A DNA stretch of 57,019 nucleotides, taken from NCBI GenBank assembly GCA_023151275.1, contig JAKLJI010000021.1, positions 1 to 57,019 on the forward strand, given 5' to 3'. The stretch comes from Bacteroidia bacterium. Lineage in GTDB: Bacteria; Bacteroidota; Bacteroidia; UKL13-3. Within the stretch, counting starts at the first letter, position 1. Every line of letters starts with the position of its first letter. Made by a program: the position numbers and the translations under genes. The notes below the pieces were generated by a model. The model searched no databases. It saw only the letters and a list, made by a program, of their open reading frames with translations, and was not told where the DNA came from. Below, piece after piece: positions 25,891 to 28,209 of the stretch.

Positions 25891-26844
25891 TTAGTTTTCT
25901 GTGAACGAACCCATGGCACTAAACTTAGCAATGCGTTCTTCAATTAACTTATCGATAGATTTGGTTTGAAGCGATTCCAATTCTTCAACCAATGTATTCT
26001 TGAGGGTTGAGAACATTTCATCCGGATTCTCATGGGCTCCTCCAAGAGGTTCTGCAATTATGCCATCAATCAACCCATTCTTCAACATATCTTCTGCTGT
26101 AAGTTTCAATGCCTCAGCAGCCTTTTCTTTATGCTCCCAGCTTCTCCACAAAATAGATGAACAGGATTCAGGAGAAATTACCGAATACCAGGTGTTTTCC
26201 ATCATCAAAACCCGGTCGCCAATCCCAATGCCCAAAGCTCCCCCGGAGGCACCTTCACCAATTACCACACAAATAACCGGAACGCGCAGAACAGACATTT
26301 CCAATAAATTCCGGGCGATAGCCTCTCCTTGCCCCCGCTCCTCAGCCTCAAGACCGGGAGATGCTCCGGGTGTATCTATCAAACATACTACAGGAATGCG
26401 AAATTTCTCGGCCATTTTCATGAGCCTCAAAGCTTTTCTGTAGCCTTCAGGATTTGCCATCCCAAAATTCCGATACTGGCGTTGTTTGGTATTCCTGCCC
26501 TTCTGATGACCAATAACCATCACACTTTGGCCCCCCAATTGAGCCAAACCGCCAACCATGGCCTTATCGTCTTTTACTCCCCTATCGCCATGCAATTCCA
26601 CAAAATGGGTAAAGCACTTTTCAATGTAATCAAGGGTATAAGGACGTTCCGGATGCCTGCTGATTTGCACCCGCTGCCATCCGTTCAGGTTTGAATAAAT
26701 GCGCTTCTTTTCCTCAAGAATTTTTATTTTAACCTCGGCTATCTTATCACTCAGGTCAATTTTTCCCTTTTCGTGATTTTTCACCAAATCGTCAAGCTGC
26801 TCCTCAAGATCAGCAATCGGTTTTTCAAAGTCGAAACTTGTCAT
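25891..26844 (-). CDS. accA: Acetyl-CoA carboxylase carboxyltransferase subunit alpha
   Basis: AccA, with AccD, transfers the carboxyl group from biotin to acetyl-CoA to make malonyl-CoA for fatty acid synthesis in the cytosol. The 317-residue protein has the family N-terminal coiled coil ([20 protein letters not shown]), then [26 protein letters not shown], the oxyanion-site region [20 protein letters not shown], and [17 protein letters not shown]. The assignment is secure. It is convergent with the aspartate kinase gene and shares its terminator. No accD or biotin carrier gene is nearby. Confidence 0.97.
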
Positions 26845-27128: not shown

Positions 27129-27202
27129 GGTGCGGTAGTTCAGCTGGTTAGAATACATGCCTGTCACGCATGGGGTCGCGGGTTCGAGTCCCGTCCGCAC
27201 CG
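27129..27202 (+). tRNA. tRNA-Asp (anticodon GTC)
   Basis: A 74-nt cloverleaf. The acceptor arms GGTGCGG (27129-27135) and CCGCACC (27195-27201) pair, with G at the discriminator position. The anticodon stem CATGC/GCATG encloses the loop CTGTCAC, giving anticodon GTC. The T arm contains GGTTCGAGTCC. CCA is not encoded. It has its own promoter and a terminator at 27206-27234. The first half of this tRNA is a plausible substrate for queuosine modification by QueA. Confidence 0.95.
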
Positions 27203-27205
27203 CAA

Positions 27206-27234
27206 AATCCTCTCCTAGTCGGAGGGGATTTTTT
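27206..27234 (+). terminator. Terminator of tRNA-Asp
   Basis: AATCCTCTCC (27206-27215) pairs with GGAGGGGATT (27221-27230) through one wobble, loop TAGTC, followed by T residues. It ends 4 nt before the start codon of the GIY-YIG gene. An identical terminator is duplicated at 27556-27584. Confidence 0.88.
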
Positions 27235-27238
27235 GTTT

Positions 27239-27487
27239 ATGGAACATTACGTTTATATACTTTTCTCCGACAACCATAATGTTTTTTACAAGGGCTATAC
27301 CACAAATCCCGAAAAGCGTTTAGAAGAGCACAACCAAAACAAATCCAGATATACAAAAGGAAAAGGTCCTTGGAAATTAGTGTTCACCAAAAGGTTTGAT
27401 ACCAAATCTGAAGCTTTAAAAGAAGAGTTACGATTGAAAAAGCTTAACAGAGCTTCCATTGAAAAACTTATCGCCCAAAATTCTTGA
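27239..27487 (+). CDS. Small GIY-YIG nuclease family protein
   Basis: An 82-residue single-domain protein of the GIY-YIG endonuclease family (small UPF0213/YhbQ-like branch). The start at 27239 gives MEHYVYILFSD. A longer frame begins inside the tRNA and is not credible. Visible active-site elements are YVYIL (4-8, the GIY position), YKGYT (17-21, the YIG position), Arg27, His31 in LEEHN, and a glutamate in ALKEELRLKK (about 62-63). Such nucleases cut DNA using a divalent metal. The gene begins 4 nt after the tRNA terminator and has no promoter of its own that I can see. Its stop codon touches a damaged copy of tRNA-Asp sequence. This placement suggests a small mobile or tRNA-linked element. 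The cellular role is unknown. Confidence 0.85.
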   Translation: MEHYVYILFSDNHNVFYKGYTTNPEKRLEEHNQNKSRYTKGKGPWKLVFTKRFDTKSEALKEELRLKKLNRASIEKLIAQNS

Positions 27488-27585
27488 GAATACATGCCAG
27501 TCATCTCGTCTTTTGGACGAGACGGGTTCGATCTCGTCTTTTGGACGAGACGCAAAATCCTCTCCTAGTCGGAGGGGATTTTTTT
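27487..27585 (+). repeat. Damaged tRNA-Asp copy carrying two identical palindromes
   Basis: Three blocks match the tRNA-Asp region in order: AGAATACATGCC plus GTCA with one mismatch between them (27487-27503, compare 27150-27166), CGGGTTCGA (27523-27531, compare 27179-27187), and a 34-base block including the terminator (27551-27584, identical to 27201-27234). The two intervening tRNA segments are replaced by the same 19-base palindrome, TCTCGTCTTTTGGACGAGA, at 27504-27522 and 27532-27550. A third partial copy starts at 27590 (ACATGCCTGTCATCTCGT) and leads into a diverged stem (TCGTC/GACGA, 27609-27628). It cannot fold as a normal tRNA. Confidence 0.8.
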
Positions 27586-28209
27586 AAAAACATGCCTGTC
27601 ATCTCGTATCGTCCTTCAGGCAAGACGAAGTATAAGAAATTGCATCGCTATTTTTACTCCAATTCCGGGTAATTTCAGAATACAACTTCCATTTCTCTGG
27701 ATTTGACTATGGGGCGCCACGTTTTTCAGCAACACCTACAGTTTGAAAATCCCTATCAACGTGGCCGGGCTTTTTGCTTGTACTCCTCAGTCGCATAGCT
27801 GGCAACCTGTAGTGGCTGTGGTGGCTTCCTGTGGTCGCCTCCTCGCACACACAGTTGCCGCCTGCGCCCTCCGGGGTACCGCTGCAATCCCTTTGCCGCT
27901 TCGCCTTCGGATAGCATTAAATTCACCCAAAAACATTTCGAAGCCTGTTGGCAAAAGAAACAAGTCTGGCCAATCAACCCGAAAAAAAGCACATTCAAAA
28001 AGAAACCCGAAAAGCTTAACAAAACACTAACATAACCCTGATTTTTTGATAGCATTCCCTTAACAAAGCCGCAAGTATTTGCTAATACAGGCCCATGAAA
28101 TTTGGAGGAAAATTTATACATCCCGAAAACTTGCTCACTTCAATTTAATGGCAAGGAAAGGCAGGTGTAAAGAATTTCAGGATTTGAATCAACTACTAAA
28201 AAACACTAT
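27488..28209. other. Gene-free stretch between the GIY-YIG gene and the first giant exoprotein
   Basis: About 720 bp with no gene I can support. The first 150 bp hold the tRNA-derived repeats described separately. A GC-rich structured part follows at about 27711-27920. The last 290 bp are A/T-rich and presumably hold the promoter and leader of the gene at 28210, but I see no clear TAnnTTTG with a TTG partner. Open frames on both strands here (for example 27756-28121 minus) lack any recognisable protein features and look like chance frames across GC-rich repeats. Confidence 0.6.
27711..27920. repeat. GC-rich structured intergenic element
   Basis: This part is clearly richer in G and C than its A/T-rich surroundings. 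GCCACGTT (27716-27723) and AACGTGGC (27758-27765) are exact inverted repeats. Further short stems follow, such as CTTCGCCTTCGGAT near 27900. It may be an interspersed repeat or a structured RNA. I could not identify it. Confidence 0.4.

Follow-up and report, generated by a model that had tools for sequence, protein, structure and literature searches.

What looks like a very small self-spreading element, apparently undescribed, was found beside the tRNA-Asp gene of a Bacteroidia bacterium (assembly GCA_023151275.1) on contig JAKLJI010000021.1, of which the whole stretch analysed, 57,019 nucleotides, is here called the window. The proposed element would consist of some 300-400 bp, namely one gene for a GIY-YIG nuclease and a disabled partial copy of the adjoining tRNA gene. 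By comparison of sequences from related genomes it could be shown that clades of this nuclease are tied to kinds of tRNA gene, that the neighbouring tRNA remains whole and has its terminator side (or, in mirrored units, its promoter side) duplicated, that the far tRNA copy bears a hairpin in place of a segment largely following the nuclease clade (here tRNA positions 38-49), and that the units occur in tandem arrays, undergo decay and are missing at the equivalent sites in relatives. We give about an even chance to the reading that this is a minimal selfish homing-like element, whose nuclease would cut one tRNA gene and be copied in during repair, by analogy with SegB of phages, and in whose spare copy a hairpin would take the place of the target.

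The locus is composed of the following features, all on the forward strand.

27129..27203, +, intact tRNA-Asp(GTC), the presumed target gene (ARAGORN)
27204..27234, +, terminator hairpin and T run of the tRNA, first copy (from the sequence)
27239..27487, +, GIY-YIG nuclease gene, 82 aa, catalytic domain only (PF01541 E 2.8e-18, AlphaFold2, conserved residues)
27488..27503, +, pseudo-tRNA block 1, about tRNA positions 22-37, ending with GTCA in the anticodon loop (sequence match)
27504..27522, +, palindrome 1, in place of tRNA positions 38-49 (exact match)
27523..27531, +, pseudo-tRNA block 2, CGGGTTCGA, part of the T stem and T loop (sequence match)
27532..27550, +, palindrome 2, identical to palindrome 1, replacing the 3' side of the T arm and acceptor bases
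27551..27584, +, pseudo-tRNA block 3, the 3' end and second terminator copy, 34/34 identical (sequence match)
27590..27607, +, third fragment, ACATGCCTGTCA-TCTCGT, beginning of a decayed further copy (sequence match)

An original prediction, made from the letters of the window, had described most of this layout, and its observations were confirmed. The T run of the terminator ends at 27234 and the ATG of the open reading frame (ORF) lies at 27239, leaving the predicted 4 nt between them, and the TGA, which ends at 27487, abuts a second tRNA-Asp copy with three blocks in order. Block GAATACATGCC is present at 27151 in the intact tRNA and at 27488 in the copy, the second block at 27179 and again at 27523. 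The 34-nt 3' block, which includes the terminator, starts at 27201 and is repeated without change at 27551. Two parts of the tRNA are replaced by the same 19-nt palindrome TCTCGTCTTTTGGACGAGA, which has no exact copy elsewhere in the 3.90 Mb genome. The anticodon-loop junction, after GTCA, corresponds to canonical 37|38 and the T-loop junction to about 58|59; positions were counted from the anticodon, with a possible error of one or two away from the anticodon arm. The third partial copy with the same junction was likewise located, with ACATGCCTGTCATCTCGT at 27590, and its palindrome appears decayed by eye. None of the three tRNA-Asp matches in the window's genome is a further intact tRNA-Asp. 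A chance origin of this layout is excluded because the same architecture recurs at other loci.

Relatives of the window protein were detected in 67 of 97 related genomes, its own included, and all but six places among the matches listed were examined. Within this set, an intact same-strand tRNA lies at most 200 nt upstream of 57 of 149 genes and at most 450 nt downstream of 4; L001-L004 and L036 (window repeats or decoys) and L011 and L012 (inside L059 and L060) stand outside the 149. Typically there are some 45 tRNA genes per 3 Mb, and by simple arithmetic such adjacency would arise by chance in well under 1% of cases. The adjoining tRNAs span 14 isotypes. In a tree of 176 proteins, an intact same-strand tRNA was found beside 92 of the 133 rows outside, and beside none of the 43 rows inside, a tRNA-free clade that was picked after the tree was seen. 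The tree was built from 93 columns, with many unresolved forks and unsettled bootstrap, and from genes without stops and of at least 60 aa, with one copy per locus. A scan of named genomes yielded 68 loci (three on the same contigs as L007-L009), 35 of which combine an upstream tRNA with a scored downstream copy, and visual inspection showed the layout in further loci, at contig ends, within arrays or in the mirrored form. Cultured isolates with the element are Flavobacterium denitrificans DSM 15936, F. defluvii DSM 17963, F. branchiicola CCM 9061 and Maribacter spongiicola DSM 25233, and members outside Bacteroidota were found in Ignavibacteria, candidate phyla and Verrucomicrobia. The arrangement is thus not unique to the window's genome, since the layout recurs in many, and GIY-YIG genes are linked to tRNA genes in most rows outside the tRNA-free clade; in both respects the original prediction, which had staked itself on these points, stands. 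It had also proposed searching for the GTCA-TCTCGT junction. With a fixed 7-nt centre this pattern was detected in 1 of 97 genomes, the window's own, because loop length varies; with other loops it occurs in Flavobacterium and others. The refuting condition that the palindrome occurs nowhere else holds for its exact letters in its own genome, but not for the palindrome type and site, which were found elsewhere.

With the window protein or its close alignment as the only query, no relative was confirmed in viral contigs, and one partial match was obtained in 50,697 phage records and one match in 72,556 plasmids. Carriage by known phages or plasmids was rejected, as far as the window protein detects relatives.

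The common form of the unit (form A) has the order intact tRNA, terminator, nuclease gene, partial tRNA copy and often a second terminator. In the mirrored form B, which was found in 8 units (e.g. L066, L229, L245), a 5' tRNA copy lies upstream and the intact tRNA downstream. When the tRNA and the stretch up to the gene were compared with the DNA after the gene, a cognate copy scoring at least 34 was found in 44 of 54 testable units (L069, L079 and L080 were untestable), and in 37 of the 54 it lay above 40.4, the 99th percentile of 233 non-cognate comparisons that reached at most 57.8. A palindrome with tRNA sequence on both sides was present in 60 of 102 tRNA-linked units (58 of 94 in form A, 2 of 8 in form B), and another 6 form-A and 2 form-B units have tRNA on one side of it. 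The natural tRNA palindrome of L074 was excluded from these counts, which leaves the totals unchanged, and the survey was made without L199, L216 and L217 (same contigs as L007-L009), L239 and L264-L266.

The replaced segments recur with differing palindromes. Positions 38-49 of tRNA-Asp are replaced in 17 loci by 10 palindromes, positions 38-47 of tRNA-Met in 6 loci by 6, positions 27-43 of tRNA-Val, exactly the anticodon arm, in 3 loci by 3, and positions 25-34 of tRNA-Asn in 3 loci by 3; a second Met group and a second Asp group share a T-loop site from 56|57. Mapped on the nuclease tree, the left boundary of the replaced segment changes 19 times over 56 rows, compared with a mean of 34.6 and a minimum of 31 in shuffles of the labels, a procedure that ignores relatedness; none of 300 shuffles gave as few changes. 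The same holds for isotype (30 changes) and stem letters (12 changes), with 0 of 300 shuffles as few for each. Within Asp the boundary changes 4 times (0 of 300 shuffles) and within Met twice (1 of 300). Since boundary changes are few even within one isotype, the replaced segment appears to be tied largely to the nuclease lineage and not to the tRNA alone. In Flavobacterium the window's two-hairpin layout recurs with a second hairpin of different sequence. A single genome can carry two elements whose palindromes differ; its tRNA-Asn element on contig C44 (L006) bears TCCCGGACGTCCGGGA.

Among 27 distinct Asp hairpins, pair 6 is A-T, C-G, G-C or T-A and is paired in 27 of 27; the outer pairs are nearly constant and the loops vary. 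Because these sequences were picked for four outer pairs, only pairs 5 and inward are informative, and sequences with fewer than four, among them the decayed hairpin of L221, stand outside the set. In this set, the stems covary while the loops drift. Covariation of this kind would be expected if the pseudo-tRNA functioned as an RNA, serving as decoy or regulator for a nuclease acting on tRNA or on its own message, so that the unit would be toxin-antitoxin-like or autoregulatory. As RNA, the window's copy is strongly structured (its folding beats 200 of 200 shuffles, z -5.4), in the Val units the hairpin replaces the anticodon arm one for one, and the protein is under purifying selection, as described below. 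However, many copies are without half of the tRNA and the mirrored units keep the 5' half instead, palindrome-correcting mutation could also yield covariation, and a PADLOC scan gave weak matches only, with no defence match better than E 0.002. We therefore regard a functional RNA as an improbable account of the unit.

Several observations bear on mobility. Genomes G004 and G037 belong to the same genus and differ at tRNA-Asp by one 320-bp insertion (L019), G004 being empty and G037 occupied; upstream, 299 aligned bases are 91% identical, and downstream the sequence continues in both. The three other genomes of the genus to which the window belongs lack a relative of the protein and have an empty tRNA-Asp site. 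Across 35 readable genomes this site is occupied, with a GIY-YIG gene within up to 700 nt, in 8, three of which (G037, G040, G042) had been added because they were hits. A single-contig genome, G023, contains eight near-identical tandem units about 410 bp apart (L037, contig 1, 169000-175500), each a nuclease gene with a marked tRNA-Asn copy, and tandem arrays of two or three units are present in L039, L040 and L041. In L159 and L173, a palindrome-interrupted 5' copy of tRNA-Asp lies just upstream of the intact tRNA-Asp with no nuclease gene between them; these marked copies are probably scars. Taken together, empty sites, a clean insertion, tandem arrays and scars suggest mobility. The proposal of the original prediction that this is a tiny tRNA-targeting mobile element is thereby well supported by comparison, to which the 14 isotypes and the cognate copies also contribute.

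The alternative that unequal recombination passively copied tRNA ends beside a harmless nuclease gene, with the palindromes as generic hairpins gathered in dead copies, could account for decaying copies and genes (L010, L012, L040) and for similar palindromes elsewhere in the G069 genome. It is difficult to reconcile with 14 isotypes and sites that track the nuclease clade, with purifying selection on the gene and with the clean insertion, and stems of 7-9 pairs that are kept while loops drift are unexpected for a dead copy. Already disfavoured, passive duplication is considered very improbable.

At the tRNA-Asp site, the window also has a gene at 25891-26844 on the minus strand, divergent from the tRNA, which we take from its translation to be accA-like. 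Next to tRNA-Asp, the beginning of a similar gene is also seen in L139, L140, L144 and L166, and the neighbour common to several loci therefore marks the tRNA-Asp site as syntenic.

The 82-aa ORF encodes a bare GIY-YIG domain that matches only GIY-YIG and T5orf172 models; no match to a HUH tyrosine transposase was obtained. Its AlphaFold2 model has a mean predicted local distance difference test score of 95. In an alignment of 66 sequences, G19, H31 and E63 are invariant and Y6, Y17 and R27 are conserved to at least 90%. The nearest solved proteins by sequence are UPF0213 (1ywl, 1zg2, E about 2e-14) and SLX1; by fold, UPF0213 comes first (1zg2, E 2e-6) and SLX1 next (7cq3, E 3.5e-3, root-mean-square deviation 1.5 over 71 columns), with I-TevI lower. 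The ratio of nonsynonymous to synonymous substitution rates has a median of 0.12 and is below 0.5 in 97% of 75 pairs, which overlap and are not independent and which include tandem copies and tRNA-free members. By this measure the nuclease gene is under purifying selection, yet copies that are truncated or contain stops also occur. A PHROGs scan gave weak matches only and an NCBIfam scan no match. In L048, L056, L127 and L008, the nuclease ORF extends into the tRNA copy and terminates at a stop codon inside or immediately after the palindrome; the tail of the protein is therefore encoded by tRNA-derived DNA.

In the favoured explanation, that of a homing-like element, the nuclease would cut or nick the tRNA gene within the segment that is replaced by the hairpin, and repair from an element-bearing template would carry the nuclease gene and the marked copy into the site. 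The hairpin would take the target out of the spare copy and keep that copy from serving as a tRNA. As the protein amounts to no more than an SLX1/UPF0213-like catalytic domain of 80 aa, we favour recognition of branched or hairpin DNA, such as the arms of the tRNA gene when single-stranded, over recognition of a long sequence. Continued cutting of the remaining intact tRNA may drive the formation of tandem arrays.

A number of observations weigh against this explanation. Over the match, the window's tRNA-Asp is 100% identical to its counterpart in the empty genome G001; the segment presumed to be the target is retained in the intact tRNA, and classical self-protection is therefore lacking. The intact gene might survive if its arms are recognised only when single-stranded or extruded, or if expression behind the tRNA terminator is low. 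The protein is a lone catalytic domain without the extra DNA-binding part of homing GIY-YIG enzymes, for which the available text of a superfamily survey names C-terminal NUMOD domains (PMC1564403). At T-loop sites the published SegB motif shows no enrichment (4 of 12, versus 33 of 102 tRNAs), and it was rejected as support. By the rule used, no palindrome is present in 30 of 94 form-A and 4 of 8 form-B units. The link between site and nuclease lineage also has exceptions: the Asn clade holds to 25-34 but has other sites in L006 and L101, the hairpin site of L218 differs from that of the other Asp units, and L240, L242 and L255, elsewhere in the tree, share the Val or Met site. Finally, the native terminator appears by eye to be the downstream one in L006 and L008 and the upstream one in L019.

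A different role for the palindrome was also considered. In repetitive extragenic palindromic (REP) systems, a REP-associated tyrosine transposase (RAYT) is the enzyme of a mobile palindrome, and the GIY-YIG protein might be its analogue, recognising a hairpin and moving it into hairpin loops such as tRNA arms, so that tRNA copies would be merely a favoured landing place. The palindromes are indeed of one style, many with TCYCG or TCCGC arms, and lie in the anticodon loop, the T loop, the D region or arm bases, and the two in one pseudo-tRNA are identical (window) or nearly so (L211). In the window's genome, however, the palindrome is confined to this element: only the two exact copies exist, and the loose form TCTCG-N4-14-CGAGA occurs in 3 places, compared with 7 places in the reversed control. 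The view that the window's palindrome is a REP family of its genome was rejected, and the second proposal of the original prediction, a nuclease-linked palindrome that spreads like REP elements, is not supported for this palindrome.

Outside the tRNA-linked branch, the evidence for dispersal is mixed. Shared repeats border the genes of the tRNA-free sister clade: 28 of 42 genes exceed the 95% level of the cross-genome control and 16 of 42 its 99% level, and many of the repeats are GTCA-tagged by eye. Against a 95% control from the same locus only 12 of 42 stand out, because the repeats run on beyond the gene, and a narrower motif was found near 12 of 43 tRNA-free genes and in 3 of 43 far regions. 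Repeats on both sides of the gene, many GTCA-tagged and palindromic by eye, were seen in L081, L038, L096, L128, L073, L098 and L100; examples of flanking GTCA-type repeats in this clade are GTCACCCTGAGC..., GTCATTTCGAGC... and GTCATTGCGAAC.... One repeat of the GTCA type is common also in genomes where no relative was detected (119 places in G096, 30 in G073), and counts of CCTGAGCNNNGTCGAAGG were rejected as proof of a REP link, as they do not track GIY-YIG presence. The palindrome TCCCG-N6-CGGGA lies above its reversed control in G008 (30 versus 0) and G029 (25 versus 0) and below it in G058, G065 and G073. In G069 (L273, L278, L279, L283), TCCCG-N6-CGGGA palindromes lie inside the loops of terminator-like hairpins, and no tRNA gene was found near them in the 20 stretches examined.

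These results point to a REP connection at the level of the family, which does not imply a causal role. The flanking repeats and the hairpin-borne palindromes of G069 speak for the hairpin as the mobile unit, while the repeats abundant without a relative, the losses under the stricter controls and hairpin sites that track the nuclease clade rather than reflecting free landing speak against it; we consider that account unlikely. A broader idea, which we also consider rather unlikely, is put forward tentatively: UPF0213/SLX1-type GIY-YIG proteins might form a second, unrecognised class of palindrome-associated mobile enzyme acting on hairpin DNA, with one branch at tRNA genes swapping arms of spare copies for hairpins and another among GTCA/CGTC-tagged dispersed palindromes for which no enzyme has been known, together a categorically new mobile system working by hairpin exchange. 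CGTC-tagged REPs are reported without a dedicated transposase in the available text of PMC3733652, and the tRNA-free sister clade would be a candidate enzyme for such repeats.

If the favoured explanation of a homing-like element is true, this would be among the smallest protein-coding mobile elements known to us, judging by the 320-bp insertion, and one that has colonised the essential tRNA genes for many isotypes, both within Bacteroidota and outside it. Placed between a tRNA and apparent debris, it is easily missed. Its hairpin sites would provide a ready map of candidate nuclease targets.

Among known systems, UPF0213 and SLX1 proteins are closest in sequence and among the closest in fold. 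SLX1 is described in the available text of PMC6902002 as structure-selective, cutting branched DNA near the branch point together with SLX4. A difference is that the accessible part of the GIY-YIG survey links these proteins to neither tRNA genes nor palindromes; it has no match for 'Bacteroid' or 'Flavobacter', and its tRNA passages are without this arrangement (PMC1564403). Nor was the arrangement found described in open-licence (CC0/CC BY/CC BY-SA) PubMed Central papers.

With REPtrons, which combine a RAYT of the HUH tyrosine transposase type with REP/REPIN palindromes, the element shares a small nuclease gene accompanied by short palindromes, as far as REPtrons are set out in the available text of PMC3733652. 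It differs from them in its enzyme, which belongs to PF01541 and not to the HUH tyrosine transposases, and in the lack of genome-wide dispersal of its palindrome, described above. Elements that integrate at tRNA genes by a tyrosine integrase keep the tRNA intact and leave a partial tRNA copy at the far end (att duplication). Insertion beside an intact tRNA with a partial far copy is likewise observed here, but the 320-bp insertion contains no integrase or other cargo, and the nuclease ORF is the only Pfam-recognised gene between the window's tRNA copies. Moreover, the far copy here bears a hairpin replacing a tRNA segment, and a mirrored 5' form exists.

With free-standing homing endonuclease genes the element shares a GIY-YIG nuclease with catalytic residues, one specific adjoining target and empty alleles in relatives. 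The resistance expected of an occupied allele is missing, as the far copy is changed and yet the intact tRNA keeps the presumed target. The closest such gene is segB of phages T4 and T6, a free-standing gene of the intronless homing type, which also places a GIY-YIG gene among tRNA genes. According to the available text, SegB cleaves inside tRNA genes, and tandem amplification of a tRNA together with segB depends on it and on recombination proteins (PMC13096335). SegB is phage-borne and, in the accessible portions of these reports, is described without hairpin-substituted tRNA copies (PMC13096335; PMC2988022), whereas the element has bacterial chromosomes as its place, an 80-aa lone domain, clades tied to tRNA isotypes and a marked pseudo-tRNA. 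Since it departs in a defining trait from REPtrons, from integrase elements and from free-standing homing endonucleases, the element is assigned to no one of these classes. It works most like a free-standing homing endonuclease, and SegB would be its best functional parallel.

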